From: Betaproteobacteria bacterium
GTDB taxonomy: Bacteria; Pseudomonadota; Gammaproteobacteria; Burkholderiales; SG8-41
NCBI GenBank assembly: GCA_900299145.1
Contig: OMIN01000110.1
Location: 1-64,000, forward strand
Length of the DNA: 64,000 nt
Direction: 5' to 3'
Both the position numbers and the translations under genes were made by a program. Below the pieces are notes generated by a model, which ran no database searches, was not told the DNA's origin, and saw only the letters and a program-made list of their open reading frames with translations. Below are positions 18,168-63,376 of this stretch, in pieces. The stretch's first letter is position 1; each line of letters begins with the position of its first letter.

Positions 18168-18235
18168 ACGTTAGATAAGGAACTTCTTGCCATGTTGTCT
18201 ATGACTGACGTGGGTTATTGCGGCGATTGGATGCC

Positions 18236-23110: not shown

Positions 23111-23124
23111 AACAAATACTTAAA
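23101..23124 (+). repeat. AT-rich dispersed repeat, copy 5 (forward)
   Basis: AATTAAAACAAATACTTA at 23105-23122, one change from the core. It contains the TAA stop of the first selenoprotein gene. Confidence 0.8.
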
Positions 23125-23142
23125 TTACATCAAGGTGCGGCC

Positions 23143-24123
23143 ATGAGATTTCATCGAATAGCAAGAACACTGCCCGTGTTGCTACCGTTGTTAAGCGCCG
23201 TGGCACACGCCCAAAGTGGTGCTGAAAATTATCCGGCGCGGCCGGTGCGGCTCATCATTCCGCAAGCCGCGGGTGGAGCGACGGATATTTTCATCCGTAC
23301 GGTCATTCCCAAATTATCGGAGACGCTGGGCCAGCAAGTGGTGGTCGACAATCGTCCCGGCGCCAACGGCGTGATCGGCGACGAGATGGCGGTGAAAGCG
23401 CCCGCCGACGGCTACACCTTCATGGCCAATGCCATCGGCATCGTGATGAACCCCAGCCTCTACAAACTGAACTACGACATAACACGCGACCTGCAAGGCG
23501 TGACCAGACTGGGCGCGATCGACATGCTGATCGGCATCCACCCATCGGTGCCGGCGAAAAGCGTCGCGGAGTTGATTTCGCACGCGAAGGCCAATCCCAA
23601 TAAACTGAACTACGCCTCATTCGGCATCGGCAGCATTTCGCATGTCGCGGGCGAAATGTTCAAGCAGGCTTCTGGCACGCAAATTGTGCATGTGCCGTTC
23701 AAGAGCTCGCCGCTCGCCGTGCAGGAAACCATCGGCGGGCAAACCCACATTGTGATGGGCGGCATTTCCTATATGCTGCCGCAGGCGCGCAGCGGCCGAT
23801 TGCGCGGTATCGCCATCACGGCAATGCAACGTAACTCCAACGCCCCCGACATTCCCACGGCGCATGAATCAGGGCTGCCCAGCTTTGACATCAACGCCTG
23901 GTTCGGCACGTGGGTGCCCGCCGCGGTGCCCAAGCCCGTGCTGGCAAAGCTGTATGATGCGATGAGCAAAACGCTCGCTGCCCCCGATGTCAGAGCCGCA
24001 ATCGACAAACACGGCTACAAAATCGGTGGTGAACCGCCCGAGCAATTTAACCAATTTGTGCGTCGTGAAGTGGAGAAGTTTGCGAAAGTGCTGAAGGCGG
24101 CGGGAATCAAGCCGGAGGGCTGA
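23143..24123 (+). CDS. Bug/TctC-family periplasmic solute receptor (4 of 13)
   Basis: The track ORF starts at 22597, deep inside the selenoprotein gene in another frame. The real start is ATG 23143 with AAGGTG 5 nt upstream, giving 326 residues. The signal peptide (MRFHRIARTLPVLLPLLSAV) ends at AHAQSG. Motifs are RLIIPQAAGGATDIFIRTV, PADGYTFM, HVPFKSSPLAVQET and LPSFDINAWFGTW. The ligand-loop Asp is present. It follows the selenoprotein gene by 32 bp, so that gene is flanked by receptors on both sides. Confidence 0.9.
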   Translation: MRFHRIARTLPVLLPLLSAVAHAQSGAENYPARPVRLIIPQAAGGATDIFIRTVIPKLSETLGQQVVVDNRPGANGVIGDEMAVKAPADGYTFMANAIGIVMNPSLYKLNYDITRDLQGVTRLGAIDMLIGIHPSVPAKSVAELISHAKANPNKLNYASFGIGSISHVAGEMFKQASGTQIVHVPFKSSPLAVQETIGGQTHIVMGGISYMLPQARSGRLRGIAITAMQRNSNAPDIPTAHESGLPSFDINAWFGTWVPAAVPKPVLAKLYDAMSKTLAAPDVRAAIDKHGYKIGGEPPEQFNQFVRREVEKFAKVLKAAGIKPEG

Positions 24124-33420: not shown

Positions 33421-34389
33421 ATGCTGAAACGCGCCCTTGCCGTCGCCTGCGCCACCGTTGGGCTATTGAATTGCACCTCAGCGGCGGCGCAATCCTGGCC
33501 CGCGCGTGCCGTGCGCATTATTGCGCCCTTCGCGGCGGGCGGCACGGCCGACTTGCTGGGACGCATCACCGCGGGCAAATTAACCGAGTCGCTCGGCGTT
33601 TCGTTTGTCGTCGAGAATCGCACGGGCGCGGGTGGCGTGCTTGGCTCTGAACTGGTGGCGCGCAGTGCGCCTGACGGCTACACGCTGCTGGTGTCGGGCG
33701 TGGCCTCGCACGCGGTCGCGCCCGCGCTGTCGGCAAAATTTCCGTTTGATCCGGTGAAGGATTTTTCGCACATTGCGCTATTCGGCGGTCCGCCGTCGGT
33801 GCTGGCGGTGCACCCGTCGCTGCCGGTGAAGGATTTAAACGCGTTCATCGCCTTTGCCAAATCCAAACCGCGCGAACTCACCTACGGCTCACCTGGCAAC
33901 GGCACGCAGGGCCATTTGATCGCGGAACTCTTCAAACGCAGCGCCGGCTTCGAGATGCAGCACGTCCCCTACAAGGGCGCGAGCGGCGCAGTGGTTGACG
34001 TGATGGCCGGGCACACCCATGCGATTTCCACCACGCTCACCACCGCTGGCGCGCAAATACGCGCGGGCCGCCTGCGCGCACTGGCGATCAGCTCGGCGGC
34101 ACGCTTGCCTGACTACAACGTGCCCACGTATCGTGAAGCAGGGTTCCCCGACCTCGTGGCAAACATCTGGTTTTCGCTTTCGGGCCCGGCAGCGTTATCG
34201 CCGGACATCGTCAATCGGCTCAACAGCGAAGTGCGCCGCGTGCTGCAACTCCCAGACGTGCGTGCGCGGCTGCGTCCCGAGGGGATCGAGCCGGGCAATC
34301 TCGATGCGAAAGCGTTTACCGAGTTTGTCGCGGCGGAGGTCAAGCGCTGGGCGCCGGTGGTTAAGGCTTCTGGGGCGAAGGCGGATTAG
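33421..34389 (+). CDS. Bug/TctC-family periplasmic solute receptor (6 of 13)
   Basis: This 322-residue receptor has signal peptide MLKRALAVACATVGLLNCTSAAAQ. Motifs are [43 protein letters not shown] and GFPDLVANIWFSL. No Shine-Dalgarno site is visible; tandem 9-bp repeats reach to the start codon, so translation may be weak or variable. It is divergent from the UGSS selenoprotein, with 115 bp between starts, so the two could share a control region. Confidence 0.9.
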   Translation: MLKRALAVACATVGLLNCTSAAAQSWPARAVRIIAPFAAGGTADLLGRITAGKLTESLGVSFVVENRTGAGGVLGSELVARSAPDGYTLLVSGVASHAVAPALSAKFPFDPVKDFSHIALFGGPPSVLAVHPSLPVKDLNAFIAFAKSKPRELTYGSPGNGTQGHLIAELFKRSAGFEMQHVPYKGASGAVVDVMAGHTHAISTTLTTAGAQIRAGRLRALAISSAARLPDYNVPTYREAGFPDLVANIWFSLSGPAALSPDIVNRLNSEVRRVLQLPDVRARLRPEGIEPGNLDAKAFTEFVAAEVKRWAPVVKASGAKAD

Positions 34390-34399
34390 CGTTGCCTCG

Positions 34400-35365
34400 T
34401 CACTGCGGCTTGATGCCGGCCATTCTGATGACTTTGCCCCACTTTTCGGTTTCCCGGCGGATAAAATCAGCTGCAAATTCGGGCGTGCCACCTATGGTGA
34501 CTGCGCCGCGGTCAGTGAAGGCCTTTGATACGACTGGCGAGAATAACGCTTTGTTGATTTCGCTGCTTAGCCGCGACCGAATGTCCCGCGCGACACCGCC
34601 TGGGGCCGCATATCCTCCCCAAGATGTAATTTCATAGCCGGGCAACCCGGCCTCCTCAATCGTTGGCAATTCCGGCAATACAGGCGAGCGTTTCTGGGTC
34701 GTCACCCCAAGTCCGCGCAGGCGGCCTGATTTGATCATGGGCAGCAACGGTGAAATGTTGTCGCAGAGAATCTGGATTTGCCCGCTGATCAGATCGGTGA
34801 TGGCCTGTTGCGTGCCCTTGTATGCAACATGCACCAGTGAGGTGCCTGTCATTGCTGCGAACATTTCCATCGTAAGATGTGGGCTGGCCCCCACGCCCCC
34901 ACTGCCATAGGACAGCTTGCCGGGATTACTCTTGGCGTGCTCGATCAATTCTTTTACCGAACGCACCGGCAGTGCGGGATTCACCGTAAGCACATTCGGC
35001 GTCGCCCCAGACATAGCCAGTGGCTGAAAGTCCCGCGCAAGATCGTAAGGCAACTTCGAAAACATGAAAGGATTGGTCGCTACCAAAAAAGTAATGTAGC
35101 CAAAGGTGTAGCCGTCCGGTGTCGCACGCGCCAGTGCCTCGTAGCCAATTATGCCGCTTGCGCCGGGCCGGTTCTCTACGACAAATGGTTGTCCCATTTG
35201 CAGGGCTAATTGAGTGGCGAGGCTACGCACGGAGATGTCGGGTGAGCCACCCGGCGCGGAAGCCACGATGATGCGGATGGGCTTTGAAGGATAGGCCTGC
35301 GCGCACGCATTGCCGCAGGCGAAACACGCCACACCAGTGGTAACCAAAAACATCAGTTTACCCAC
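34400..35365 (-). CDS. Bug/TctC-family periplasmic solute receptor (7 of 13)
   Basis: GTG at 35365 is chosen as start, with GGGAG 6 nt upstream and a good signal peptide (VGKLMFLVTTGVACFACGNACAQ); the track start at 35497 adds unrelated residues. The 321-residue protein has RIIVASAPGGSPDISVRSL, TPDGYTFGYI, HVAYKGTQQAITDLI and GYEITSWGGYAAP. The pocket loop Asp is present. It is convergent with receptor 6, with 10 bp between stops. Confidence 0.9.
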   Translation of the reverse strand: MGKLMFLVTTGVACFACGNACAQAYPSKPIRIIVASAPGGSPDISVRSLATQLALQMGQPFVVENRPGASGIIGYEALARATPDGYTFGYITFLVATNPFMFSKLPYDLARDFQPLAMSGATPNVLTVNPALPVRSVKELIEHAKSNPGKLSYGSGGVGASPHLTMEMFAAMTGTSLVHVAYKGTQQAITDLISGQIQILCDNISPLLPMIKSGRLRGLGVTTQKRSPVLPELPTIEEAGLPGYEITSWGGYAAPGGVARDIRSRLSSEINKALFSPVVSKAFTDRGAVTIGGTPEFAADFIRRETEKWGKVIRMAGIKPQ

Positions 35366-35506
35366 GCCTATCTCCCTAAAAATTGGACAGAAGATGGAAT
35401 CGCTATTTTCAGTGCGTCTGAAATGTATCGCCCGGCAGTGTTGGCGCTCAATCACAACAACCCTGTGCGCATAGGGCTGCTTGAAAGCCAAAACCAACTC
35501 CCCGAG

Positions 35507-39301: not shown

Positions 39302-40282
39302 TCAATCAATCCGTATATTCGTCTCGCGCGCGAGTTTGGCTTTTTTATCGAACTCGGTTTTGATGTACGCCGTGAATTCCTCCGGCGAGTTGCTGGCGGC
39401 AAGTTCGATGCCGCGTTCGAGGTAGCGTTTGCGCAGTTCGGGCAGGCGCGTGATGCGTGTGACTTCCGTCTGGATGCGGGTGAGCGCTTCGCGCGGCGTG
39501 CCGGCGGGGGCCATAAGGCCGTTGAAAGTGATTTCTTCGTAGCCCTTCAGGCCCGATTCGTCGATGGTCGGCACGTTGGGGAAGAGCGGTGAGCGGGTGA
39601 GGCTGGTGACGCCCAGCGCGCGCAGCCGGCCGGCGTCGATATACGGTTTGCCGGAACTCACCTGATCAAACATGAGCTGCACGTTGCCGGCAATGACGTC
39701 GATAATGGTCGCTGAATTGCCCTTGTACGGCACGTGCAGCATTTTGATGCCAGCCTGCATGCCGAGTAGTTCCGCCGCGATGTGCCCGGTACTGCCCGCG
39801 CCTGTCGCGCCGTAGGCGATCTGCCCCGGCCGCGCCTTGGCCAGCGTGATCAAGTCCTTCACGGTTCGCACCGGCAGCGTGGGCGTGACCACCAGCACCA
39901 TCGGCACCAGACACGTAAGCGTCACGCCGGTGAAATCCTTCAGCGCATCGTAGCCGGGGTTCTTCAGGAGCGACGGCACGGTGGCGAAGGTGTTGGCGAT
40001 TTTCAGCAGTGTGTAGCCGTCTGCCGGCGACTTGGCGACAAACTGCGTGCCGACCAGGCTGCTGGCGCCGGGCCGCGCCTCCACAATGACTTGCTGGCCG
40101 AAGGTTTCGGACATCGGCGCGGCAATCGCGCGCGCCACGATATCCAGATTGCCGCCCGCCGCCACCGGGACGATGATGCGGATGGGCTTGACCGGGTAGG
40201 CCTGCGCGTGCGCAGCGGGGGTGGCCGATGCGGCCCATGCAATCATTGCGGCGGCGCCCGCACGGGATAGGGATCGCTTCAC
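39302..40282 (-). CDS. Bug/TctC-family periplasmic solute receptor (8 of 13)
   Basis: GTG at 40282 is preferred: AGGAGG lies 4 nt upstream and it opens a standard signal peptide (VKRSLSRAGAAAMIAWAASA), whereas the track start at 40321 adds 13 residues. The 326-residue protein has RIIVPVAAGGNLDIVARAI, PADGYTLLK, HVPYKGNSATIIDVI and GYEEITFNGLMAPAG. The pocket loop Asp is present. Transcription is toward the terminator and palindromes at 39.1-39.3 kb. Confidence 0.9.
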   Translation of the reverse strand: MKRSLSRAGAAAMIAWAASATPAAHAQAYPVKPIRIIVPVAAGGNLDIVARAIAAPMSETFGQQVIVEARPGASSLVGTQFVAKSPADGYTLLKIANTFATVPSLLKNPGYDALKDFTGVTLTCLVPMVLVVTPTLPVRTVKDLITLAKARPGQIAYGATGAGSTGHIAAELLGMQAGIKMLHVPYKGNSATIIDVIAGNVQLMFDQVSSGKPYIDAGRLRALGVTSLTRSPLFPNVPTIDESGLKGYEEITFNGLMAPAGTPREALTRIQTEVTRITRLPELRKRYLERGIELAASNSPEEFTAYIKTEFDKKAKLARETNIRID

Positions 40283-40433
40283 TTCGCCTCCTGTTGTCCG
40301 AATTGCCATGATGACGTCCATGCTTTAATGCCACACTATAAGTCGCGGTACGGCGCGTGAAAACTGCCGCCCGAGGGACTGTAATTTTTCAATGCTGCGA
40401 GGGCGAGTGTAACATCCGCCTAACAGAGGGTTT

Positions 40434-41980: not shown

Positions 41981-42553
41981 CTAGTAGTCGAAGAAAACCG
42001 TTTCCTGCGGCCCTTGCAGATGCACATTCCATTGCAGCGTGCCATCCGGCGACTTGGCGGCTATCAACGTCCCGCGCCGCGCCGCGGGCACCAGATTCAG
42101 CACGGGGTCGGCGGCATTGGCCGCTTCATCCGGAAAGTAAATCCGCGTCATCAAATGCTTCAACAGCCCGCGCATGAAAATCACCACCGTGATATGCGGC
42201 GCCTGTTCGCGGCCTGGATGACCATCGGGGCCGGCTACCTTGCCGGGTTTCACCGTGGCGAGCCGGAAGCCGCCTTGCGCGTCCGCCAGCACGCGGCCGA
42301 AACCCCTGAAGTTGTCTTCGAGAAGCTTTTCCTGCGCGTCGTCGGGATGCGCGTATTTGCCGAACGAATTGGCCTGCCAGGTTTCGAGCACCGCGTCGGT
42401 CACCGGCAGGCCGTCGCCGTCGAAAATTCTGCCGGTGATTACCACGCGCTCACCTGCAATCCCCGCGGGCGCCACATCCGGCACGGCAGTGGTCTCGAAG
42501 CCGATGGACACAAACGGGCCGACGGTTTGCGCGGCGGTCAACAATAGACTCAT
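41981..42553 (-). CDS. pcaG: Protocatechuate 3,4-dioxygenase alpha subunit
   Basis: This 190-residue protein is the alpha chain of intradiol ring-cleavage dioxygenase, which pairs with the iron-carrying beta chain. The family opening TAAQTVGPFVSIGFE, the barrel segment VTDAVLETWQANSFGKYAHP and HITVVIFMRGLLKHLMTRIYF are present. As expected for alpha, the iron-binding His-x-His pair is absent. The start overlaps the pcaH stop by 4 bp (ATGA). Confidence 0.92.
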   Translation of the reverse strand: MSLLLTAAQTVGPFVSIGFETTAVPDVAPAGIAGERVVITGRIFDGDGLPVTDAVLETWQANSFGKYAHPDDAQEKLLEDNFRGFGRVLADAQGGFRLATVKPGKVAGPDGHPGREQAPHITVVIFMRGLLKHLMTRIYFPDEAANAADPVLNLVPAARRGTLIAAKSPDGTLQWNVHLQGPQETVFFDY

Positions 42554-43269
42554 TTCTTGTTCTCTTGCGTTTCCATCGGTGTCGCGTCACGCCCGCGCAA
42601 AATGATATCGAAGCGATAGGCGATCGCGTATTCGGGCTGGGTGTTTTCCCAATCAAAGCTTGACACCAGCCGCGCGCGCGCCTTGTCGTCGGGCACGCTC
42701 AGGTACATCGGGTCGAACGCCAGCAAAGGATCGCCGGGAAAATACATCTGTGTCACCAGCCGCTGCGCAAAGCCCTGCCCAAACAGCGAAAAATGCAAAT
42801 GTGCGGGCCGCCACGCGTTATAGTGGTTACGCCACGGATACGCCCCCGGTTTGATGGTCTTGAAGCGGTAGTTGCCTTGTGCGTCCGTCAGCACGCGGCC
42901 GGCGCCGGTAAAGTTCGGATCAAGCGGTGCGTCGTGATTGTCGACCGGGTGCTTGTAACGCCCGGCGGCGTTGGCTTGCCACAACTCCACCAGTGCATTC
43001 GGCACCGGCCGGCCGCCTTCGTCGAGCAGGCGGCCCGACACGAACATGCGTTCACCCAGGGGTTCGCCCGCGTGCTGCGCGGTGAGATCCCACTCGCTGT
43101 CGGCCACATCGCTCGCGCAAAACAAAGGGCCGGTAATCTCCGATAGCGTTTGCGGAATCTGAACCAGCGGCTGCGTGGGCGCCCGCTTGACGGTGGAACG
43201 ATATGCCGGGAACAGAAAATCCGGTTGCGTGTTGAAATAAGATTTACGGTAGGGGTTGGGATTACTCAT
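42550..43269 (-). CDS. pcaH: Protocatechuate 3,4-dioxygenase beta subunit
   Basis: This 239-residue protein is the catalytic beta chain. It opens the protocatechuate ring between the hydroxyl groups to give carboxymuconate. The ferric ligands can be seen: one Tyr in NAAGRYKHP, a second in RNHYNAWRP, and the His pair in AHLHFSLFG. ATG 43269 is chosen; the track start at 43317 lies in the adjacent inverted repeat. The downstream protocatechuate genes (pcaB, pcaC) are not here, though a CMD-family gene lies at 55.1 kb. Confidence 0.93.
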   Translation of the reverse strand: MSNPNPYRKSYFNTQPDFLFPAYRSTVKRAPTQPLVQIPQTLSEITGPLFCASDVADSEWDLTAQHAGEPLGERMFVSGRLLDEGGRPVPNALVELWQANAAGRYKHPVDNHDAPLDPNFTGAGRVLTDAQGNYRFKTIKPGAYPWRNHYNAWRPAHLHFSLFGQGFAQRLVTQMYFPGDPLLAFDPMYLSVPDDKARARLVSSFDWENTQPEYAIAYRFDIILRGRDATPMETQENKK

Positions 43270-43298
43270 GCGGAGCAACTCTGTTCCTGATCGGGTTT

Positions 43299-43384
43299 TG
43301 TAGCCCGTATGAAGCAAAGCGTAATACGGGAAACTGTTTCTGCATTAGCGTTCCCGTATTGCGCTTTGCTCCATACGGGCTACA
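43299..43384. repeat. Long inverted repeat (34-bp arms)
   Basis: The left arm 43299-43332 and right arm 43351-43384 match at 32 of 34 positions when inverted; both mismatches still pair as G-U. The sequence (GTAGCCCGTATGAAGC...) is of a kind seen as dispersed palindromes in betaproteobacteria. It fills the gap between pcaH and the tautomerase gene and could be a small non-coding mobile element. Confidence 0.85.
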
Positions 43385-44177: not shown

Positions 44178-44386
44178 GATGGCTCTCCGAAGTTAAAGTT
44201 CGTTGGTCCAGCGGTGGTCACAGCGTTTGCCTTGCCTGCAGCGTGTACTTTCTAGCTGCAATTTCATGCTACGCGCGCATGACACACCGGTCAAACAAAA
44301 GGTTTTTCCGCGACACGTGAGCGATTATTATGTGGGCAAGCCGCCATGCACTTTTTTCGTTCACGCCAAGGCATCAGTCCGTCGCT

Positions 44387-45379
44387 ATGAATATCAAAGC
44401 AAGTATTTGTTTTTATTCAATAATTTGTGCCGCGACGAACGCGCTATGCGCTGGCCCCGCCTACGCGCAGCGCACCACCGTGGAGCCGGCATTTCCAGCG
44501 AAGCCGATCCGCTTCATTGTGCCGCAGGCAACCGGCGGCAGTAACGATACGCTGGGGCGTTTGATGGGCCACCATTTGTCGGAGCGTCTCGGCAAGCAGG
44601 TCGTGATCGATAACCGCCCCGGCGCCGACGGCATTATCGGCACTGAAATCGCGGCGCGGGCGGCCGCTGACGGCCACACCTGGCTGATGGCCTCAGGCGC
44701 TTACGCGATGAACGCCGCCGTGCGCAAAATGCCTTACGATCCCGCCACCGCGTTCGCGTGGTTCGCGCTGCTCGGCAACGGGCCGTCGGTGTTGGTGACG
44801 CATCCGTCGATACCGGTGACTTCGGTAAAAGACATCATCGCGCTGGGCAAGGCCAAGCCCGGCTACTTCACCATGGCCTCGGCCGGCGGTTATCAGCATT
44901 TCGTGTCGGAGCTTTTTCGCGGCCTGTCCGGCATTGATATGGCGATCGTGCTGTATCGCGGCGGATTTCCGGCACTGCTCGACGTGATGAGCGGGCAGGC
45001 ACATCTGCTGCTCGGCTCGTTCGTCACCTCCAACACGCACATACGTTCAGGCAAGGTCAAAGCCATTGCCACCTGCGGCGCGCGGCGCACACCGCTCCTG
45101 CCCGATTTGCCGACCATTGCCGAATCCGGCCTGCCCGGTTATGACGCGTCGAATTATTGGGCCATCGGCAGTGCTACTGGCACGCCGCCCGCGGTCATCA
45201 CCCGCGTGAGCAACGACATTGGCGCTATCTTGAAGCTGCCGGAAACGCAAAAACGCTTCACACTCGAAGGCGCAGAAGCCGAATTCAAACCGTCAGCCGA
45301 GGCGGATAAATTCCTCAAGGCGGACATCGTCAAATGGGCGCGTGTCGCGCGGGAAGCGCGCATGGCCAGCGATAAATAA
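44387..45379 (+). CDS. Bug/TctC-family periplasmic solute receptor (9 of 13); signal peptide overlaps a repeat
   Basis: This 330-residue receptor starts at ATG 44387. Its signal peptide MNIKASICFYSIICAATNAL is partly encoded by a reversed copy of the dispersed repeat, which shows that the element can become coding sequence. The mature part has RFIVPQATGGSNDTLGRLM, AADGHTWLM, a pocket region YRGGFPALLDVM where the usual HVPYKG is VLYRGG, and GLPGYDASNYWAIG. It lies 89 bp before the nitrile hydratase-like operon and may deliver its substrate (inference). Confidence 0.88.
   Translation: MNIKASICFYSIICAATNALCAGPAYAQRTTVEPAFPAKPIRFIVPQATGGSNDTLGRLMGHHLSERLGKQVVIDNRPGADGIIGTEIAARAAADGHTWLMASGAYAMNAAVRKMPYDPATAFAWFALLGNGPSVLVTHPSIPVTSVKDIIALGKAKPGYFTMASAGGYQHFVSELFRGLSGIDMAIVLYRGGFPALLDVMSGQAHLLLGSFVTSNTHIRSGKVKAIATCGARRTPLLPDLPTIAESGLPGYDASNYWAIGSATGTPPAVITRVSNDIGAILKLPETQKRFTLEGAEAEFKPSAEADKFLKADIVKWARVAREARMASDK
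44400..44425 (-). repeat. AT-rich dispersed repeat, copy 12 (reverse), inside a coding region
   Basis: CAAGTATTTGTTTTTATT at 44400-44417, one change from the reversed core. It falls in the signal-peptide codons of receptor 9. Confidence 0.85.
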
Positions 45380-45468: not shown

Positions 45469-45831
45469 ATGAGCGACACAACCAAACTACCCTCCGACAT
45501 CGGCGGCGAACACGCCGGGCCGGTGGACACGCTTGACCACGGCATGCGGCACTGGGAGCGGCAGGCCAACGCCTTTCGCTCCGTGGTGCAAATGACCAAA
45601 CTCACCTGCACCGATGAGCTGCGGCGTGCCGCCGAGGAACTCGGCAGCCGTTACAAGGATATGGAATATTTCGAGATCACCACCAGCGCCATGCGCACGG
45701 TGCTGCTCGAAAAAGGCGTGTTCACCGAGCAGGAACTTCAGGCCAAGATGGCCGAAGTGCGCGCGCGATTTAACGTGCCTGATGAAATGGAATCGCCGGT
45801 GAAGAAGGGCGCCAGCATGGTGCAGAAATGA
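45469..45831 (+). CDS. Nitrile hydratase/thiocyanate hydrolase, beta N-terminal-half subunit
   Basis: This 120-residue protein matches the N-terminal half of nitrile hydratase beta: SDIGGEHAGPVDTLDHGMRH and FEITTSAMRTVLLEKGVFT. In most nitrile hydratases this half is fused to the C-terminal half, but here they are separate genes overlapping by 4 bp. That is the subunit order seen in thiocyanate hydrolase (scnB-scnA-scnC). Which reaction it serves cannot be told from the sequence. Confidence 0.83.
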   Translation: MSDTTKLPSDIGGEHAGPVDTLDHGMRHWERQANAFRSVVQMTKLTCTDELRRAAEELGSRYKDMEYFEITTSAMRTVLLEKGVFTEQELQAKMAEVRARFNVPDEMESPVKKGASMVQK

Positions 45832-46160
45832 GCGCGGATTTTTCCTTCAAGTCGACCTACGCGCCCGCGCCGGTGCGTCGCTATAACGTTGGTGACAAAG
45901 TCACCGTCAAGCGCGCGTTCCCGCCGGGCCATCGCCGCACGCCGCAATACATCCGCGGCAAGCAGGGCGTGATCGAGCGCATTTGCGGCGCGTATCCGAA
46001 TCCGGAAGAGCTCGCCTACGGCTTTGACGGCAAACCGGAAAAGGTGCTCTACCGCGTGCGCTTCGCGCAATCGCACGTGTGGCCGGGATACGCGGGGCCG
46101 GCGAATGATGTGATCGAGATGGAAGTTTATGAGCACTGGCTGGAGCCGGTGAAGGGCTAA
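45828..46160 (+). CDS. Nitrile hydratase/thiocyanate hydrolase, beta C-terminal-half subunit
   Basis: This 110-residue protein equals the C-terminal SH3-like barrel of nitrile hydratase beta: YNVGDKVTVKRAFPPGHRRTP, YIRGKQGVIERICGAYPNPE, and LYRVRFAQSHVWP. The overlap ATGA with the upstream gene implies coupled translation in equal amounts. The Arg residues in this barrel that contact the oxidised cysteines in known enzymes are plausible here (FPPGHRRTP) but not proven. Confidence 0.85.
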   Translation: MSADFSFKSTYAPAPVRRYNVGDKVTVKRAFPPGHRRTPQYIRGKQGVIERICGAYPNPEELAYGFDGKPEKVLYRVRFAQSHVWPGYAGPANDVIEMEVYEHWLEPVKG

Positions 46161-46191
46161 ACGTTTTTGAACCTGACATGAAGGCGCCAAC

Positions 46192-46881
46192 ATGACCAAT
46201 CCCACCCACGACTACTACGCCCGTTCACATCACGATCATGATCATGCGCACGACCATGATCACGATGACCACAAGGTTCCCAACCCGGCCAACGAGCACG
46301 ACAATGGCCCGCCCGGTGAGTATGAAATCATGAGCCGCGCCATGCAGGAACTGCTCGAGCAAAAAGGCCTGATTACCGCCGAGCAGGTGGCCAAGCGCAT
46401 GGAGCAGTTCGACGAGGAGTTTCCGTATCGCGGCGCGCAAATTGTGGCGCGCGCCTGGACAGACCCCGCTTACAAGCAGCGGCTGCTCGACGATGGCCGC
46501 GCGGCGTGCGCCGAGGCTGGCGTGATGCTTGAGGCCGAACGGCTGATCGCCGTGGAAAACACGCCTGCGGTGCATAACGTCATCGTGTGCACGCTGTGCT
46601 CGTGCTATCCGCGTTCGCTGCTCGGCATGCCGCCCACCTGGTATAAGAGCCGCAACTACCGTTCGCGCGTGGTGTTCGAGCCGCGAACCGTGCTGCGTGA
46701 ATTCGGCACAGTGCTGCCCGACAGCGTGACCGTGCGCGTGCACGACTCCAACGCCGACATGCGCTATCTGGTGGTGCCGATGCGCCCCGCCGGCACCGAC
46801 GGCTGGAGTATTGAGCGTCTGGCGGGGTTGATTTCGCGCGATATGCTGGTGGGCGTGACCGTGCCCAAATTGCCTGCATAA
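46192..46881 (+). CDS. Cobalt-type nitrile hydratase alpha/thiocyanate hydrolase gamma subunit with His-rich N terminus
   Basis: This 229-residue metal subunit carries VCTLCSCYPRSLLG, the claw motif with three Cys ligands; Thr in CTLC marks the cobalt type (iron types have Ser). The tail LRYLVVPMRPAGTDGWS is typical of alpha subunits. Unusual is the N terminus with the run HHDHDHAHDHDHDDH, likely able to bind cobalt and perhaps help load the site. No separate activator or cobalt transporter gene is visible nearby. The stop is met by a dispersed repeat. Confidence 0.9.
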   Translation: MTNPTHDYYARSHHDHDHAHDHDHDDHKVPNPANEHDNGPPGEYEIMSRAMQELLEQKGLITAEQVAKRMEQFDEEFPYRGAQIVARAWTDPAYKQRLLDDGRAACAEAGVMLEAERLIAVENTPAVHNVIVCTLCSCYPRSLLGMPPTWYKSRNYRSRVVFEPRTVLREFGTVLPDSVTVRVHDSNADMRYLVVPMRPAGTDGWSIERLAGLISRDMLVGVTVPKLPA

Positions 46882-46906: not shown

Positions 46907-48103
46907 ATGAATCCTGCACCGCGGCTGGACACAGCTTGGGCCGCCAGATTGGTGGCTGCGTGGGATGGCAGCGGCCTACATCGGATGTGCACGCCGGGCG
47001 ATTTCGCCAGCGGCGCGTGGCTGGAGGCCGAAGCCGCACGCAGCGGCGCTGCGGTCTTGCGCATGCCCGTGCCCACGCAGCGCACCGTCATCCACGAGGC
47101 GTTTCTCGAATGCGCGGGCCATCGCATTGACGGCTTGCCAATGTTCGACGCGCCGTCGATTGCAGAGATGTCGGGCGCGCTTTGTACCAGTGGCGCTGTT
47201 AGCGCCGGTAGCACAAGTGGTTCAAATGGAACCATCGGTTACGCCGAGTTTCCGCCCAACGCGGCCTCGATCAAAGGCCAGCCGCTGGAAAAGCTGCGGC
47301 GCGCCACACAACATCAGGCGCTGGTCGTGGCCACGCGCGTGAGCGGTGATTCGCTCGCGCCGATCAACGCGCAATTTTTCAACACGCCCTTCGGCCCGCC
47401 CGTGCTGCTGGTGGCTGGCATGCATCACGAATTGCTCGCCGGCCTTGCGGCCCGGCAAACGCCCGCGCGGCTCGTGAGCCACTACACGCGCGATGCGATG
47501 GACTCCTTCAACGTGGAAGCGCAAGTCGCTGGAGCCGGAAGTGGCGCGGCGCCACTGGCCATCGTCACACCGCGCACGGGCTGGTGGGAATCCACTGCCG
47601 AACGCGCCGGCGGCATCGTGGCCTGGCTCGCCGCGCTGGATGCCGCAGCGCAACTCAAACGCAGCGCCGCCCTAAAGCGCGACGTCGTGGCGTGGGCCAC
47701 CTGCGGCCACGAACTGGGCCACATCGGCTTGCAGGAACTCACGCGGCTAAACGGGCCCACCGTTACCGCTGCAAAATACTGGCTGCATCTGGGCGCGAAT
47801 CTCGGCGGCGCGGGGAATCTCACCATGATGGTGCGCGCGACCGTCAAGGCCGACGCCGAAGCCTTGCGCGATCTGCTGGTGGCCGAAGGCTATCCCGCAC
47901 AGCACATCCTGGTTGAACCCGACAGCAAACTCTCCGGCGAAGGCCACGACTTGCATCACCTTGGCGCGAAAGTCATGTCGCTCGCCGGCAGCAATGGGCA
48001 TTTTCATGCGGCGAGTGACCGATGGCCCGGCAACGTCAACGCGGCGGGCATCGCCAGCATCTCGCGCGCGGTGGCGCGGTGGGTGGCTGTGCAGGTGACG
48101 TAA
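46907..48103 (+). CDS. Uncharacterised protein, distantly like M28-type metallopeptidases
   Basis: The function of this 398-residue protein is not recognised with confidence. The C-terminal half resembles the M28 aminopeptidase fold: IVTPRTGWWESTAERAGGIV, ATCGHELGHIGLQEL, YWLHLGANLGG and HFHAASDRWPGNVNAAG. The usual metal ligands (His, Asp, Glu, Asp, His) do not line up clearly; GHELGHIG replaces the EExGLxG-type motif. It may be inactive or use another metal site. The start is joined to the hydratase operon by a repeat; coexpression is possible. Confidence 0.55.
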   Translation: MNPAPRLDTAWAARLVAAWDGSGLHRMCTPGDFASGAWLEAEAARSGAAVLRMPVPTQRTVIHEAFLECAGHRIDGLPMFDAPSIAEMSGALCTSGAVSAGSTSGSNGTIGYAEFPPNAASIKGQPLEKLRRATQHQALVVATRVSGDSLAPINAQFFNTPFGPPVLLVAGMHHELLAGLAARQTPARLVSHYTRDAMDSFNVEAQVAGAGSGAAPLAIVTPRTGWWESTAERAGGIVAWLAALDAAAQLKRSAALKRDVVAWATCGHELGHIGLQELTRLNGPTVTAAKYWLHLGANLGGAGNLTMMVRATVKADAEALRDLLVAEGYPAQHILVEPDSKLSGEGHDLHHLGAKVMSLAGSNGHFHAASDRWPGNVNAAGIASISRAVARWVAVQVT

Positions 48104-50793: not shown

Positions 50794-51789
50794 TCATTCC
50801 ACTTTTATTCCCGCCACCTTGACCACTTTCGCCCACTTTGTCATTTCACCCTGGATAAATGCGCCAAATTCTTCCGGCGTGTTGCTCATCGGTTCGGCGC
50901 CGATGGAATAAAACCGGGCTCGCGCGTCCGGCTCGCACAGTGCATTTGCCACTTCGGTATTCAGGCGCATGATGATGTCGCGCGGCGTGCCGGCCGGCGC
51001 GAGCAGGCCGTACCACGAATTGACTTCAAAGCCGGGCAGGCTTTCGCTGATGGCCGGGATGTCGGGCGCGCCCTGCCAGCGTTTGGCGGTGGTGACGCCC
51101 AGTGCGCGCAGGCGGCCGGTTTTTGCGGCGGGCACGCCGGTGACGATGCCGTCGAACATCATCGATAGCTGGCCGCCGATGGTGTCCACGTGCGCGGGGG
51201 CGAGGCCCTTGTAGGGCACATGGGTGATGCGAACGCCGCCGATCATTTTCATCAGTTCGCCCGACAAATGCGACGAGGTGCCCGCGCCGGCGGAGCCGAT
51301 GGTGAGTTGATCGGGCTTTGTTTTGGCGAACGCGATCAGCTCTTTGACCGAGCGCGCGGGGATTGAAGGATGCACCACCAGCAGATTGGCGATCGAGGCA
51401 AACATCAGCACGGGCGCGAAATCCCTCGCGGCGTCGAACGGCAATTTGGCGTACAGCGAAGGATTTACGGCATGCGCGAACGCTGCAGCGATCAGCGTAT
51501 AGCCGTCGGCGGGCGCCTTGGCCGCCATGTCGGTGGCGATGTTGCCCGCCGCGCCGGGACGAAAGTCGATGACCACCGGCTGGCCCCATTTTTCCGTGAG
51601 CTTTTGACCAATGGTGCGCGCGCCGACATCACTCGGCCCGCCGGCGGCAAAGCCAACCAGAATGCGTATGGGCTTTACAGGGTATGACTGTGCCTGCACG
51701 GCGCCCGCAAAACTCGCGAGAGCCGCCAACAGGGCCGCTGCGGTGACCGCCGCGGGCGACAATCCGCACCTGCGATTCGGATTCTTCAT
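50794..51789 (-). CDS. Bug/TctC-family periplasmic solute receptor (10 of 13)
   Basis: ATG 51789 with AAGGAAATTT upstream begins a signal peptide ending SFAGAVQAQS; the track start at 52041 runs back into the neighbouring receptor. The 331-residue protein has RILVGFAAGGPSDVGARTI, PADGYTLIA, HVPYKGLAPAHVDTI and LPGFEVNSWYGLLAP. It follows receptor 11 by 29 bp on the same strand, and a degenerate dispersed repeat fills that gap. Confidence 0.9.
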   Translation of the reverse strand: MKNPNRRCGLSPAAVTAAALLAALASFAGAVQAQSYPVKPIRILVGFAAGGPSDVGARTIGQKLTEKWGQPVVIDFRPGAAGNIATDMAAKAPADGYTLIAAAFAHAVNPSLYAKLPFDAARDFAPVLMFASIANLLVVHPSIPARSVKELIAFAKTKPDQLTIGSAGAGTSSHLSGELMKMIGGVRITHVPYKGLAPAHVDTIGGQLSMMFDGIVTGVPAAKTGRLRALGVTTAKRWQGAPDIPAISESLPGFEVNSWYGLLAPAGTPRDIIMRLNTEVANALCEPDARARFYSIGAEPMSNTPEEFGAFIQGEMTKWAKVVKVAGIKVE

Positions 51790-51797
51790 AAATTTCC

Positions 51798-51815
51798 TTT
51801 TAAAACAGATGGTTA
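51798..51815 (+). repeat. AT-rich dispersed repeat, degenerate copy 15 (forward)
   Basis: TTTTAAAACAGATGGTTA, recognisable with several changes. It lies 3 bp past the receptor 11 stop and just upstream of the receptor 10 start. Confidence 0.55.
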
Positions 51816-51818
51816 TGA

Positions 51819-52832
51819 TCAATCCGGTCTGAGGCCGATGGCGCGGATCAGCTTCGCATTCTGCGCAAGTTGCCCGGCGATGAATGCGGCGAACTGTTCG
51901 GGCGTCGTGGTCTGCGCTTCCAGACCCTGCTTGCCGTAAGCCGTCTTCATTTCCGGCGTGTTGACCGTGCCTGCCAGTGCGGCATTGACTTTGGCGATGA
52001 TGTCGCGCGGCACGCTTGCTGGTGCAAGCACGCCCACCCACGAAGAACGGTCGTAACCGGTGACACCGGATTCATGCAGCGTCGGTAGTGCGGGCATGAA
52101 CGAGGCGCGCTGCATGCTGGTAACCGCCAGCGCGCGCACACGGGGAGCGCCGCTGCCAATCACCGGCATCAGCGATGGCATGCTGGCGAACACCATATCG
52201 ACGAGGCCGCTGACATTGGCGATCACGTTATCCAGCCCGCCTTTGTATGGCACGTGCAGAATGTCGATGCCTGCCATCATCTTTAACGCCTCTGCTGAAA
52301 GATGCGGCGTGGTGCCAGTGCCCACCGAGCCGTAACTCAACTTGCCCGGCTGCGCGCGCGCCAGTGCGATGAGTTCCTTCACGTTGCGCGCCGGCACTGA
52401 TGGATGCACCACCAATATGAACGGCGCCACCGCCATCAGCGACACCGGCGCAAGATCGCGTTCGAGGTTATAGGGCAGCTTCGGGCGCATCACCGGGATC
52501 ACTGTATCGGCGGCCGTGGGCGCGAGCAGCGTGTAGCCGTCGGCGGGCGCGGTGGCGACGCGCTCGGTGGCAATGGCGCCCGAAGCGCCGGGGCGGTTTT
52601 CCACGACGATTTGCTGCCCCAACGCTTCGGCGAGTTTCGGTGCTGCCTGGCGTACGGTGACGTCGGCGATGCCGCCGGGCGAAAAACCGACGACGATGCG
52701 AATGGGTTTGGCGGGGTAACCGGATTGCGGTTGGGCATGGGGTTGCGCTGTCGCGCCCGCGGCGGCGCAACCCAACAACGCCGCAGCGGCTTTACGCTTC
52801 AACGCTTGCTTTGCCGGCGGTTTTCGCGGCAT
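51819..52832 (-). CDS. Bug/TctC-family periplasmic solute receptor (11 of 13)
   Basis: This 337-residue receptor has a basic N terminus (MPRKPPAKQALKRK) and a signal peptide ending near GATAQPHAQ. Motifs are RIVVGFSPGGIADVTVRQA, PADGYTLLA, HVPYKGGLDNVIANV and YDRSSWVGVLAP. Its start overlaps the end of the dioxygenase gene by 41 bp, so the dioxygenase and receptors 11 and 10 form one unit. Confidence 0.9.
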   Translation of the reverse strand: MPRKPPAKQALKRKAAAALLGCAAAGATAQPHAQPQSGYPAKPIRIVVGFSPGGIADVTVRQAAPKLAEALGQQIVVENRPGASGAIATERVATAPADGYTLLAPTAADTVIPVMRPKLPYNLERDLAPVSLMAVAPFILVVHPSVPARNVKELIALARAQPGKLSYGSVGTGTTPHLSAEALKMMAGIDILHVPYKGGLDNVIANVSGLVDMVFASMPSLMPVIGSGAPRVRALAVTSMQRASFMPALPTLHESGVTGYDRSSWVGVLAPASVPRDIIAKVNAALAGTVNTPEMKTAYGKQGLEAQTTTPEQFAAFIAGQLAQNAKLIRAIGLRPD

Positions 52833-53946: not shown

Positions 53947-54939
53947 TCACTGCTTCGGCAACCCGGTAGCGCGCACGACTTTGCCCCATTTGCCGATTTC
54001 CGACTGAATGTAGGCGCCGAATTGCGCCGGCGTACCGCCCAGCGGCTCCACGCCCAGCGCCGCGAACCGGTCGCGGATGTCAGCGGTTTGCAGCACGCGC
54101 GCGATTTCCGCGTTAAGCCGCGTGACAATGTCGCGCGGCGTGGCGGCAGGCACAGCAAAGCCCTGCCAGGTGGTCGATTCAAAGCCCGCCAGTCCTGATT
54201 CCGAGAGCGTGGGCAAATCGCGCACGGCGCTGGAGCGCTGTGCCGAGGTGACCGCCAGCGCACGCACCTTGCCGGATTGCATCTGCGGCATGCCCGATGG
54301 CAGGCCCATGAACAGCAGCGATATTTGTCCGCCGACAAGATCGGTAATCGCAGGCGGCATGCCGCGATACGGCACGTGAAGTAAATCAACCTTTGCCATC
54401 GTCTTGAACAATTCGCCGGTGAGATGCGTGCCGGTGCCCACACCCGCCGAGCCAAAAATGAGTTCGCCGCGCCGCGCATGCGCCAGCGTGATCAGCTCCT
54501 TGACCGACCGCGCGGGCACGGATGGATGAAGGGTCAGCATGTACAGCCCGTCGGCAATGCGCGACACCGGCGTGAAATCACGCAGAAGGTCATACGTGAG
54601 TTTGCTGTAGATATGCGGTGAAATCGCCTGCGCTGAGGACACCAGCAGCAGCGTGTAGCCGTCGGGCGCGGCGCGCGCCGCCAGCGGCATGCCGATGTTG
54701 CCACCCGCGCCGGGCTGATTGTCGATGACGATTTGCTGGCCGAGACGGTCCGAAAGGCCGCGCGCGACCAGCCGCGCGATAGTGTCGCTGGCGGAACCCG
54801 CACCCACCGGCAAAATCAGACGCAGTGGTTTGGCGGGCCAGGTTTGCGCGAAACCGGCGGCGCTGGCGAGCAGCAGCGCGATAAAGGTTGCGGCGGCAAT
54901 AACGGCGGCGCGACTCACACGCCGCCATTGCGCGAGCAT
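53947..54939 (-). CDS. Bug/TctC-family periplasmic solute receptor (12 of 13)
   Basis: ATG 54939 opens a normal signal peptide (MLAQWRRVSRAAVIAAATF to GFAQ). ATG 54984 is also possible and would place a dispersed-repeat copy in the coding region (MNKNRYLRLI). Neither has a strong Shine-Dalgarno site. The ~330-residue protein has RLILPVGAGSASDTIARLV, APDGYTLLL, HVPYRGMPPAITDLV and LAGFESTTWQGFAVP. It is followed on the strand by the TauD-like gene, 54 bp away. Confidence 0.88.
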   Translation of the reverse strand: MLAQWRRVSRAAVIAAATFIALLLASAAGFAQTWPAKPLRLILPVGAGSASDTIARLVARGLSDRLGQQIVIDNQPGAGGNIGMPLAARAAPDGYTLLLVSSAQAISPHIYSKLTYDLLRDFTPVSRIADGLYMLTLHPSVPARSVKELITLAHARRGELIFGSAGVGTGTHLTGELFKTMAKVDLLHVPYRGMPPAITDLVGGQISLLFMGLPSGMPQMQSGKVRALAVTSAQRSSAVRDLPTLSESGLAGFESTTWQGFAVPAATPRDIVTRLNAEIARVLQTADIRDRFAALGVEPLGGTPAQFGAYIQSEIGKWGKVVRATGLPKQ

Positions 54940-54960
54940 GGCGCTACCGCAGGAAATTAA

Positions 54961-54990
54961 TCTTAAGTATCTGTTTTTGTTCATTATTTT
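54961..54990 (-). repeat. AT-rich dispersed repeat, copy 16 (reverse)
   Basis: TAAGTATCTGTTTTTGTT at 54964-54981, two changes from the reversed core, at the 5' end of receptor 12. Confidence 0.75.
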
Positions 54991-55124
54991 CGGCTTGCCG
55001 GCGTTGCGCAATTGAAACGACGCTACACCGGGGAAACCAGCCGCGAAATCATAGTCGCTCGCCATGCTTTAGACTAGCCGGCGATAACTTCGCCGCCCCG
55101 ACTCAACTCATCACTGGAAAAACC

Positions 55125-55685: not shown

Positions 55686-55939
55686 TGCGTGCCCTGAATG
55701 CAGTCGGGTCTTCGCTGGCTTGTCGTATTGGTTAAAGTGATGTAGTGATGCGCGGGACAAGAGATGGAATACGGCATGCTTGTATGTGTGGCCATTTTGC
55801 GCAGCCTAGGTTACGGCCAGCCTTGCGTGACTGCTGTTCCGAGATTATCCTCTTTGCATTGGTGTGTCTTTGTCGTTTGATGGTTCTTTTCGAATGACAC
55901 TGGTAACGACTACATCTGTGTGGCTTGGGGAGTGCGGCA

Positions 55940-56947
55940 ATGTGTTTTACCGGCAATACATTCCGATCTATGCGTTACGTGCTGGTGATGGCGTGTTTGC
56001 TCGGGGCAGCCAAGTGTTGGGCGCAAAGTTCGCAGCAAGCAGCGACGGGATTCCCGAGTAAACCGGTACGTTATGTCGTCACCTTTGCTGCGGGCGCCGC
56101 ACCCGACACCGTGGCGCGGTTGCTCGCGGAACGCCTCACAAGAATGTGGGGGCATCAGGTCATTGTTGACAATCGCGTGGGGGTGGCGGGCCTGCTGGGT
56201 GCGGCGTCGGTGGCCAAGTCGCCGCCCGACGGCTACACGCTGGTTCAATGCAACATTGGCACCAACGCCATTGCGTTGTCGCTGTACACGAAAGTACCGT
56301 TTGATCAGAACCGCGACTTCGCGCCGGTCACCCGCATCGGTACCACGCCGAATGTGATCGTGGTGCATCCTTCCGTGCCGTTTCGCGGCGTCAAGGACAT
56401 GGTCACCTATGCCAGAACCAATCCGGGCAAGTTGAGCTATGCCGCCGGATTTGCCGGCACCTCGCAACCGCTGATGATGGAGCTGTTCAAGCTGATCGAG
56501 AAACTCGACATTGTTCATGTTCCCTACAAGGCTGGCCCTCAGGCCGTGACCGACAACGTGGGCGGGCAGGTGCCGATGGGTGTCTATCAGGCGCCGTCGG
56601 TGGTGGCGCATGTTCAGGGAGCACGCTTGCGCGGATTGGTGGTGAGCAGCGGCAAGCGCATTGTGCAATTGCCCATGGTGCCAACGATGGTCGAATCCGG
56701 GTGGACGGACTTTATCGTGACCTCGTGGTACGGCGTGTGTGCGCCGGCTGCAACGCCAGTGCCGGTGCTGGATAAACTGAACGCCGATTTCGTTGCCATA
56801 CTGCGCAGCACCGAACTACAACAACGGCTGGACGATCTCGTGGTGCTTTCCGCGCCCACCAGCCGCGAAGAATTCGATCAAATCATCCGCTCCGAAACCG
56901 TGCGCTGGGCGAAAGTCATCAAGGACGCGAGAATCCCGTTGCAGTGA
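55940..56947 (+). CDS. Bug/TctC-family periplasmic solute receptor (13 of 13)
   Basis: ATG 55940 is preferred because GGGGAG lies 7 nt upstream; ATG 55970 also fits and would give a shorter signal peptide (MRYVLVMACLLGAAKCWAQ). Motifs are RYVVTFAAGAAPDTVARLL, PPDGYTLVQ, HVPYKAGPQAVTDNV and FIVTSWYGVCAP. It is the last receptor of the region and is convergent with the small EthD-like gene. Pocket loop GAAPDT replaces the more common GGxxD. Confidence 0.88.
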   Translation: MCFTGNTFRSMRYVLVMACLLGAAKCWAQSSQQAATGFPSKPVRYVVTFAAGAAPDTVARLLAERLTRMWGHQVIVDNRVGVAGLLGAASVAKSPPDGYTLVQCNIGTNAIALSLYTKVPFDQNRDFAPVTRIGTTPNVIVVHPSVPFRGVKDMVTYARTNPGKLSYAAGFAGTSQPLMMELFKLIEKLDIVHVPYKAGPQAVTDNVGGQVPMGVYQAPSVVAHVQGARLRGLVVSSGKRIVQLPMVPTMVESGWTDFIVTSWYGVCAPAATPVPVLDKLNADFVAILRSTELQQRLDDLVVLSAPTSREEFDQIIRSETVRWAKVIKDARIPLQ

Positions 56948-61754: not shown

Positions 61755-61939
61755 GATGAGCAGTTGGCTCCGACGAGTACCAGTGAAACAGGACGCCATC
61801 GAGAATAGCATGCAGGCAGGGCTGTACGCTAAAATTGCAGTTCGTCCCAAATTCACCCTTTTGCATCCACCGCATCCATGTTCGCGCGCACTTTCATGGC
61901 ATCACGGCCGGCCCCTGTGTTTCTGGTATTTTCGCCGCC

Positions 61940-63376
61940 ATGGTGAATTCGGACCCAGCCGCGCGTCGCGCGCTACCCTCGGTTGACCGGCTGCTGAGCA
62001 ACAGCGCGGTTGCAACGCTTGTCGCGCGTTTTGGACGTGTGCTTACCACGGATACCATCCGTGCGCTGTTACAGATGCATCGCGACAAACTTGCGCAGAA
62101 CGCCAGCGCTTTTGAATTCGACGAAGCGCGCTTTACCGCCGAGTGTGAACAAAGCCTCCTGCGGCAAACACAGCCGTCTTTACGTCCGGTATTCAATCTT
62201 TCGGGTACGGTGTTGCACACTAATCTTGGCCGCGCGGTGATGCCGCAATCGGTCGCCGACGCCGTGATGATTGCGATGACGCGGCCGGTGAATCTGGAAT
62301 TCGACCTTGACGGCGGCGCACGCGGGGAACGTGACACGCACGTGGAAAAATGGATCACCCGGCTTGCTGGCGGCGACGGCGCAGTAGTGGTCAACAATAA
62401 CGCGGCGGCGGTATATCTCGCGTTAAACACACTCGGCGGTCAGCGCGGCAAATCGGAAATTATCGTCTCGCGAGGCGAACTCATTGAAATCGGTGGCGCA
62501 TTTCGCATCCCTGACATCATGAAGCGCGCGGGTGTGAAACTGGTCGAAGTCGGCACCACCAACCGCACGCATCTGAAGGATTTCGCCGAAGCCATCAGCC
62601 CGCGCACGGCGGCGATCATGAAGGTGCACACCAGCAATTACGCGGTGCAGGGTTTCACTGCCGCGGCGCCGGAGCCGGAACTCGCGGCACTCGCCCACGA
62701 ACACGGCATTCCGTATATTGTCGATTTGGGCAGCGGCATGCTGGTGAACCTCGAAGACTACGGCCTGCCGCACGAACCCACGCCGCGGGAAGCGCTGGCC
62801 AATGGTGCGGATTTGGTGACCTTCAGTGGTGATAAATTGCTTGGCGGCCCGCAAGCAGGCTTGCTCGTCGGCAAGAAGGATTTGATCGCGCGCATACGCA
62901 AAAATCCGATGAAGCGGGCGTTGCGGGTGGATAAGATGACGCTCGCCGCGCTGGACGCGCTGCTGCGGCTTTATACCAACCCCGACAAACTGCGCGACGA
63001 GGTCACCGCGATCCGTTTGCTCACGCGCACCCAGGCGGAGATTCGCACGCAGTGCGAGCGCGTGTTGCCGCATATCCAAAGCGCTCTCACAGGTAAGGCC
63101 GAAGCCAAAGTCATCGATACCGGCAGCCAGATTGGCAGTGGTTCTTTGCCGGTGGATTCGCTGCCGAGCGCGGGTATCGCTCTCACGCCGGCGGGCAAAG
63201 CAACGCGTTCGTTCGCGGATAAACTCTCGCTGGCGTTTCGGGCGCTACCTGTGCCAGTGATCGGGCACATCCGTGACGGCGCGTTCGTGCTGGATTTGCG
63301 TTGTCTGGATCGCGCAGATCACGAAGGCGAGTTCATTGCGCAGCTTAAGCAGTTAAGACTAAAAAATAGCATTTAA
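61940..63376 (+). CDS. selA: L-seryl-tRNA(Sec) selenium transferase
   Basis: SelA converts Ser-tRNA(Sec) to selenocysteinyl-tRNA with selenophosphate, using PLP. The 478-residue chain has the family opening LPSVDRLLSNSAVATLVARFG, then NLSGTVLHTNLGRAVMP, VVVNNNAAAVYLALNTL and the PLP Lys299 in FSGDKLLGGPQAG. ATG 61940 is chosen; the track start at 61835 is upstream of the family sequence. selB follows 23 bp later, with a dispersed repeat covering the selA stop. selD and selC were not found in the window. Confidence 0.94.
   Translation: MVNSDPAARRALPSVDRLLSNSAVATLVARFGRVLTTDTIRALLQMHRDKLAQNASAFEFDEARFTAECEQSLLRQTQPSLRPVFNLSGTVLHTNLGRAVMPQSVADAVMIAMTRPVNLEFDLDGGARGERDTHVEKWITRLAGGDGAVVVNNNAAAVYLALNTLGGQRGKSEIIVSRGELIEIGGAFRIPDIMKRAGVKLVEVGTTNRTHLKDFAEAISPRTAAIMKVHTSNYAVQGFTAAAPEPELAALAHEHGIPYIVDLGSGMLVNLEDYGLPHEPTPREALANGADLVTFSGDKLLGGPQAGLLVGKKDLIARIRKNPMKRALRVDKMTLAALDALLRLYTNPDKLRDEVTAIRLLTRTQAEIRTQCERVLPHIQSALTGKAEAKVIDTGSQIGSGSLPVDSLPSAGIALTPAGKATRSFADKLSLAFRALPVPVIGHIRDGAFVLDLRCLDRADHEGEFIAQLKQLRLKNSI

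Follow-up and report, generated by a model that had tools for sequence, protein, structure and literature searches.

A split-beta, Co-type nitrile hydratase with a conserved His/Asp-rich alpha tail and no detected activator gene in a betaproteobacterial genome

The split-beta operon and its surroundings

The window (the whole stretch of DNA analysed, 64 kb of a betaproteobacterial contig) contains three consecutive genes of the nitrile hydratase (NHase) family, all of them on the + strand. The betaN gene (45469-45831; 120 aa) encodes the N-terminal half of the beta subunit as a protein of its own, similar to AnhD (PF21006, NHase_beta_N, 47.7 bits), and the betaC gene (45828-46160; 110 aa) encodes the SH3-like C-terminal half, similar to AnhE (PF02211, NHase_beta_C, 78.8 bits). 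Both beta domains are consequently present, but on two genes. The betaC product matches 2dd4_A, the alpha chain of thiocyanate hydrolase, as well as the C-terminal halves of NHase beta subunits. The ATG of betaC overlaps the stop codon of betaN by 4 bases, which suggests that both genes may be translationally coupled. The alpha gene (46192-46881; 229 aa; PF02979, NHase_alpha, 262.4 bits) is the only PF02979 gene that the profile search found in the genome, a 158-contig assembly with a completeness of 99.7%. It is encoded in 12 of the 14 genomes of the genus, with 78-95% identity in the other 11.

The alpha subunit has an N-terminal His/Asp-rich tail; a conserved NEHDNGPP stretch separates it from the folded core. 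The His/Asp-rich segment, HHDHDHAHDHDHDDH, comprises residues 13-27 (46228-46272, + strand) and is predicted to be disordered: in the AlphaFold2 model, computed from an alignment of the window and genome-contig loci only, residues 1-37 have pLDDT values below 50 and the core is well folded. Within the core, the sequence displays the CTLCSC metal-claw motif of Co-type enzymes (46588-46605, + strand), which is invariant in the relatives. CTLCSC is also carried by one Fe-type enzyme, and the motif alone is not decisive for the Co-type. The Arg of CTLCSCYPR (46612-46614, + strand) marks the split-beta group, most activator-bearing NHases having Trp at this position. The initial annotation described the locus as a three-subunit Co-type hydratase with a His/Asp-rich tail, and this description is confirmed by the open reading frames, the profiles, the CTLCSC motif and the conservation of the tail.

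A gene for a TctC-type periplasmic solute-binding protein (44330-45379, + strand; PF03401, 140.5 bits) is located around 90 bp upstream of the operon and is retained there in several relatives. About ten genes of this type are found in the window, most of them confirmed by Pfam and two judged by similarity (among them 18218-19228, 22597-24120, 33421-34386, 34403-35497, 39302-40321, 50794-52041, 51819-52832, 53950-55065 and 55925-56944). Directly downstream of alpha, the gene at 46907-48103 (+ strand) has no Pfam match; its predicted product shows an M28 aminopeptidase-like fold (model pLDDT 76; best Foldseek match 2ek8, E 2.3e-19), and on visual inspection the motifs that normally supply the M28 metal ligands appear altered. 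This gene adjoins alpha in most members of the genus. An amidase gene (12990-14276) is found in the window 31 kb away from the operon. Of the 64 split loci with 7 kb of sequence or more, 11 have an amidase of the same type nearby; as genomic context, amidase and hydratase together would fit a route from nitrile to amide to acid.

Regarding the rest of the window, the region 41981-43317 contains two adjacent intradiol dioxygenase-like genes, one of which matches the beta subunit of protocatechuate 3,4-dioxygenase. Genes for a tautomerase and a class II aldolase are close to this pair, and the region is probably an aromatic degradation cluster. The selA gene (selenocysteine synthase, 61835-63373) lies near the end of the window. 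Close relatives of the operon also occur in two metagenome bins titled Bordetella parapertussis (L007, L013), a species label that is doubtful.

Enzyme identity and phylogenetic placement

The alpha subunit passes the NHase alpha model TIGR01323 (259.2 bits, cut-off 249.85) and fails the thiocyanate hydrolase model TIGR03887, built for ScnC/gamma (210.9 bits, cut-off 291.45). On the basis of these profiles the enzyme most likely hydrates nitriles to amides, nitriles being the inferred substrates. The initial annotation had compared the split-beta gene order with thiocyanate hydrolase rather than with the usual two-subunit NHase. That comparison holds for the gene order and also for the CTLCSCYPR motif; identity as a thiocyanate hydrolase does not hold, considering both profile results and the grouping of the enzyme with other split NHases.

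It is very improbable that the enzyme is a thiocyanate hydrolase or functionally close to one. The betaN-betaC-alpha order, CTLCSCYPR and the side of the tree are all common to Scn, and a grouping of the window clade with Scn is not rejected in the concatenated data (p-AU 0.09). Nevertheless, TIGR03887 is missed by 80 bits while TIGR01323 is passed, the alpha core shares 45-46% identity with the Scn-like alphas, which do not have the VHDS[NT]A motif, and Scn is set apart on a long branch (1.7 changes per column). Besides, Scn operons are marked by an additional P15K-like activator gene, and none was found in the window operon.

For the phylogenetic analysis, custom-built HMMs served to sort the loci by gene order. 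A quick tree of 137 rows was not optimal (an alternative was 60 log units better) and was replaced by a 67-row alpha tree and a concatenated tree of alpha, betaN and betaC. In the alpha tree, a branch with 98/94 support parts two sides: one contains the activator-bearing enzymes, the probable Fe-type group and the operons with the order alpha-betaN-betaC-activator, and the other contains all the split activator-less enzymes, the betaN-alpha fusions and Scn. The support of this branch rises to 100/99 in the concatenated tree, where the window enzyme is placed inside the large split-beta activator-less group. Scn forms a 100/100 clade of its own, which does not include the window enzyme and sits basally on the split side at the end of a long branch, and the support for the split enzymes minus Scn is not strong (92/72). 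Placement of the window clade with the conventional group is rejected in the concatenated data (p-AU 0.012); that of the window clade plus its fused sisters is not (p 0.245), and with alpha only neither the Scn nor the conventional placement of the window clade is rejected. A position inside ordinary NHases, combined with an activator gene elsewhere, was not what the phylogeny and the genome searches yielded.

Marker residues agree with this division. The residue after CTLCSCYP is R or K in all the split (112/112), fused (18/18) and Scn-like (8/8) alphas, versus W in 92 of 97 activator-bearing alphas; the YPR/YPW difference is an independent marker in agreement with the tree. Likewise, most of the split group has VHDS[NT]A where the conventional group has VWDS[TS]A. 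The alpha-betaN-betaC-activator operons (L087, L119, L120, L122, L128, L244) fall inside the conventional NHase clade; thus the beta gene was split at least twice, the second splitting being independent and accompanied by retention of the activator. These results suggest that the split activator-less branch is larger and less described than could be deduced from the literature.

Cobalt maturation and the role of the tail

The initial annotation implied that no separate activator accompanies the operon, and none was detected beside it or elsewhere in the genome with the PF21006, TIGR03889 and P15K profiles, a search for P14K/P15K-type proteins in which a divergent one could be missed. PF21006 covers beta N-domains and also matched P14K-type activators in other genomes; in this genome its only match is the betaN gene. 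TIGR03889 (NHase accessory protein) gave 0 matches in the genome. This model also fails to find the P15K-like genes of the genomes with Scn operons (L113-L116) and, because of that, a P15K profile was built from four Scn operons; its sole match in the genome is betaN (E 0.008). Among the 12 genomes of the genus with the window enzyme, seven have this enzyme alone and are devoid of a TIGR03889 gene, and five have a conventional alpha-beta-activator operon in addition, which is the only one present in the two remaining genomes of the 14.

The tail itself is under selection and is not due to chance. In the 11 orthologues of the genus its pN/pS (0.131) is similar to that of the catalytic core (0.137), and the His segment accumulates 258 synonymous vs 67 non-synonymous codon pair differences. 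Most of the His and Asp columns are invariant as protein, with both CAC/CAT and GAC/GAT in use, and this alternation of synonymous codons rules out an artefact of low-complexity DNA or repeats. The length of the tail varies across orthologues while its composition is constant.

The relationship between tail and activator was surveyed in loci fetched by family profile regardless of the tail, using the alpha starts as predicted; a set of loci collected with HDHDHDDH itself among the search seeds was excluded from the tail counts, and the sample is weighted to Burkholderiales and other Pseudomonadota. Alphas were scored as tailed if a stretch of 15 residues ahead of the core contained 5 His or more. 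By this measure, tails occur in 33 of 42 split activator-less alphas vs 48 of 73 alphas from alpha-beta-activator operons (Fisher p = 0.20), figures from which no statistical association between tail and activator can be claimed either way, since the absence of the activator corresponds essentially to one branch. The tail as a marker of activator-less enzymes is ruled out by this survey. Nine of the 42 split alphas do not reach 5 His in any 15-residue stretch, and the tail is thus not needed in all split enzymes; tail-less activator-less examples are L032, L033, L042 and L199. As tails accompany activators and split enzymes without tails exist, both features dissociate in both directions. The tail was found in 0/4 beta-alpha-activator, 0/6 alpha-betaN-betaC-activator and 2/7 Scn-like loci, and it is absent from the six alphas of the probable Fe-type group, which is devoid of a P14K-like gene. 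Some activators have His-rich C-termini (for instance EGGDEGHHHHHHHDG and RHDHQRSGHHHPHH; L121, L122, L153, L157, L244) in operons where the alpha tail is short or absent. The correlation between activator C-terminal His and alpha tail is not significant (rho -0.19, p 0.07; Fisher p 0.10), and a compensating movement of the His tail between alpha and activator is suggestive only.

Three alternatives on maturation and the tail have been weighed. The initial annotation saw the tail as a possible built-in cobalt store that would stand in for the activator, a proposal that now seems improbable. In its favour, the tail is present and an activator gene was not found in the genome, and when all the activator-bearing alphas are pooled the comparison becomes 33/42 vs 48/83 (p = 0.029). 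However, that difference is not significant against the alpha-beta-activator class alone. Split enzymes without either element exist, and deletion of the His17 stretch from the Monosiga NHase reportedly left, in the absence of an activator, full cobalt and about half of the activity. Moreover, the published mass of S. canus AnhA (21.33 kDa) is close to that of the window alpha minus its tail (21.1 kDa), suggesting little or no tail there, and the Co-type NHase from P. putida is tailed (SHTHDHHHDG, 3QXE) and uses P14K (PMC3680314). Quite unlikely, too, is an unrecognised activator encoded elsewhere, for example one of three CobW/G3E GTPases or a divergent P14K: the genome does contain three PF02492 proteins, and the curated activator profile overlooks P15K in Scn genomes, but CobW-family proteins are present in 13 of 14 control genomes, those of this genome are on other contigs than the operon, and the activators of Co-type enzymes are members of the betaN family, of which only betaN itself was detected. 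A role of the tail unrelated to maturation (buffering of Zn, Ni or Co, detoxification, control of solubility or oligomerisation) is possible, although on balance doubtful. The tail is disordered, varies in length between orthologues and appears across NHases of different maturation types; against such a role, it was not seen in the six probable Fe-type alphas, and the His-rich activator C-termini found where the alpha tail is short or absent (p about 0.1) hint at metal delivery.

The best explanation, to which a probability of around 0.7 is given as a whole, is that of an activator-independent three-subunit Co-type NHase in which betaN aids maturation and the tail is an accessory. BetaN and betaC together would constitute the beta half; alpha would bear the Co(III)-(Cys)3 claw, and the complex would hydrate nitriles to amides. 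No separate P14K/P15K protein would be required. Instead, betaN, which is homologous to activators, would probably form a betaN2-alpha intermediate that helps cobalt into alpha and then hands alpha over to the full enzyme, which probably makes betaN, by analogy, a candidate maturation chaperone or in-built activator. The disordered His/Asp tail most likely concentrates Co2+ locally through loose binding, cobalt being the inferred ligand, and would act as a local cobalt buffer. The tail is probably an accessory common in Co-type NHases and not what makes the activator dispensable. The proposal for betaN as in-built activator follows the AnhD-AnhE-AnhA precedent of Streptomyces canus CGMCC 13662, whose ScNHase has this gene order and no activator gene (PMC7329996). 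There, AnhD acts as a metal and subunit-swapping chaperone: it forms AnhD2A, which activates the apo-enzyme, and cobalt enters AnhA without an activator and with reductant (PMC7329996).

In the use of Co-type NHases the activator is a complication; a broad lineage that does without one is therefore useful, and the one-residue marker YPR vs YPW makes it easy to mine. An attractive idea is corrected as well: loss of the activator is not paid for with a His tail, since enzymes that have an activator are tailed too. The question becomes testable in terms of what the tail does in both groups and whether betaN does the job of the activator.

Fused relatives and known systems

Marine betaN-alpha fusions from alpha- and gammaproteobacteria (L030, L034, L036, L043, L049, L051-L053, L055, L056), together with two Hyphomicrobiales fusions, are the sister group of the window clade in the concatenated tree (100/100). 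In most of the marine loci betaC is the next gene, and in L036 and L049 two betaN-alpha fusions flank one betaC. The tail-derived linker of the marine proteins keeps a short conserved His motif, HxHDGxxHxH, which favours a metal-binding role for the tail. In Roseomonas-like betaN-(HD)n-alpha fusions (L058, L062, L081, L082) no betaC was found within ~5 kb downstream, weak thresholds included. Opisthokont NHases are beta-His-alpha fusions (PMC3323583). As betaC directly precedes the tailed alpha in the split operons, fusion of both would yield the eukaryotic layout; an origin of these eukaryotic enzymes from split operons is a lead only. It is a tentative idea, held at clearly less than even odds, that the YPR branch is a distinct major Co-type lineage, that the tail is a conserved cobalt-loading element in it and that this branch was the source of the eukaryotic fusions, for which no activator is known either, the route within this joint reading being betaN-tail-alpha fusions such as those of marine alphaproteobacteria and Roseomonas-like bacteria. 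The Monosiga brevicollis fusion NHase (PMC3323583) is like the window enzyme in having a His-rich stretch just ahead of alpha and no activator known, and differs in being one fused polypeptide.

Conventional P14K-type NHases have an unsplit beta subunit and an activator gene, and the window operon has neither. The P. putida enzyme belongs with them (unsplit beta, separate P14K and YPW, on the conventional side of the 100/99 branch) and shares with the window its Co-type alpha and a short His-rich N-terminus. ScnABC (2DD4; TIGR03887) is closer in split beta, gene order, CTLCSCYPR and side of the tree, but it has a P15K-like activator gene in the operon and a separate long branch, and the window alpha stays under the TIGR03887 cut-off. 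The closest parallel is ScNHase, which is alike in its three subunits, betaN-betaC-alpha order, Co-type, lack of an activator and activator-homologous betaN; it differs in being actinobacterial and in its published AnhA mass, which would imply little or no tail. In the sequence comparison S. canus was represented by a homologue from a Streptomyces sp. NBC_01176 plasmid (L150), where the same three genes, with an alpha 54% identical to that of the window, are followed by genes for an aquaporin and a HoxN/NixA nickel/cobalt transporter.
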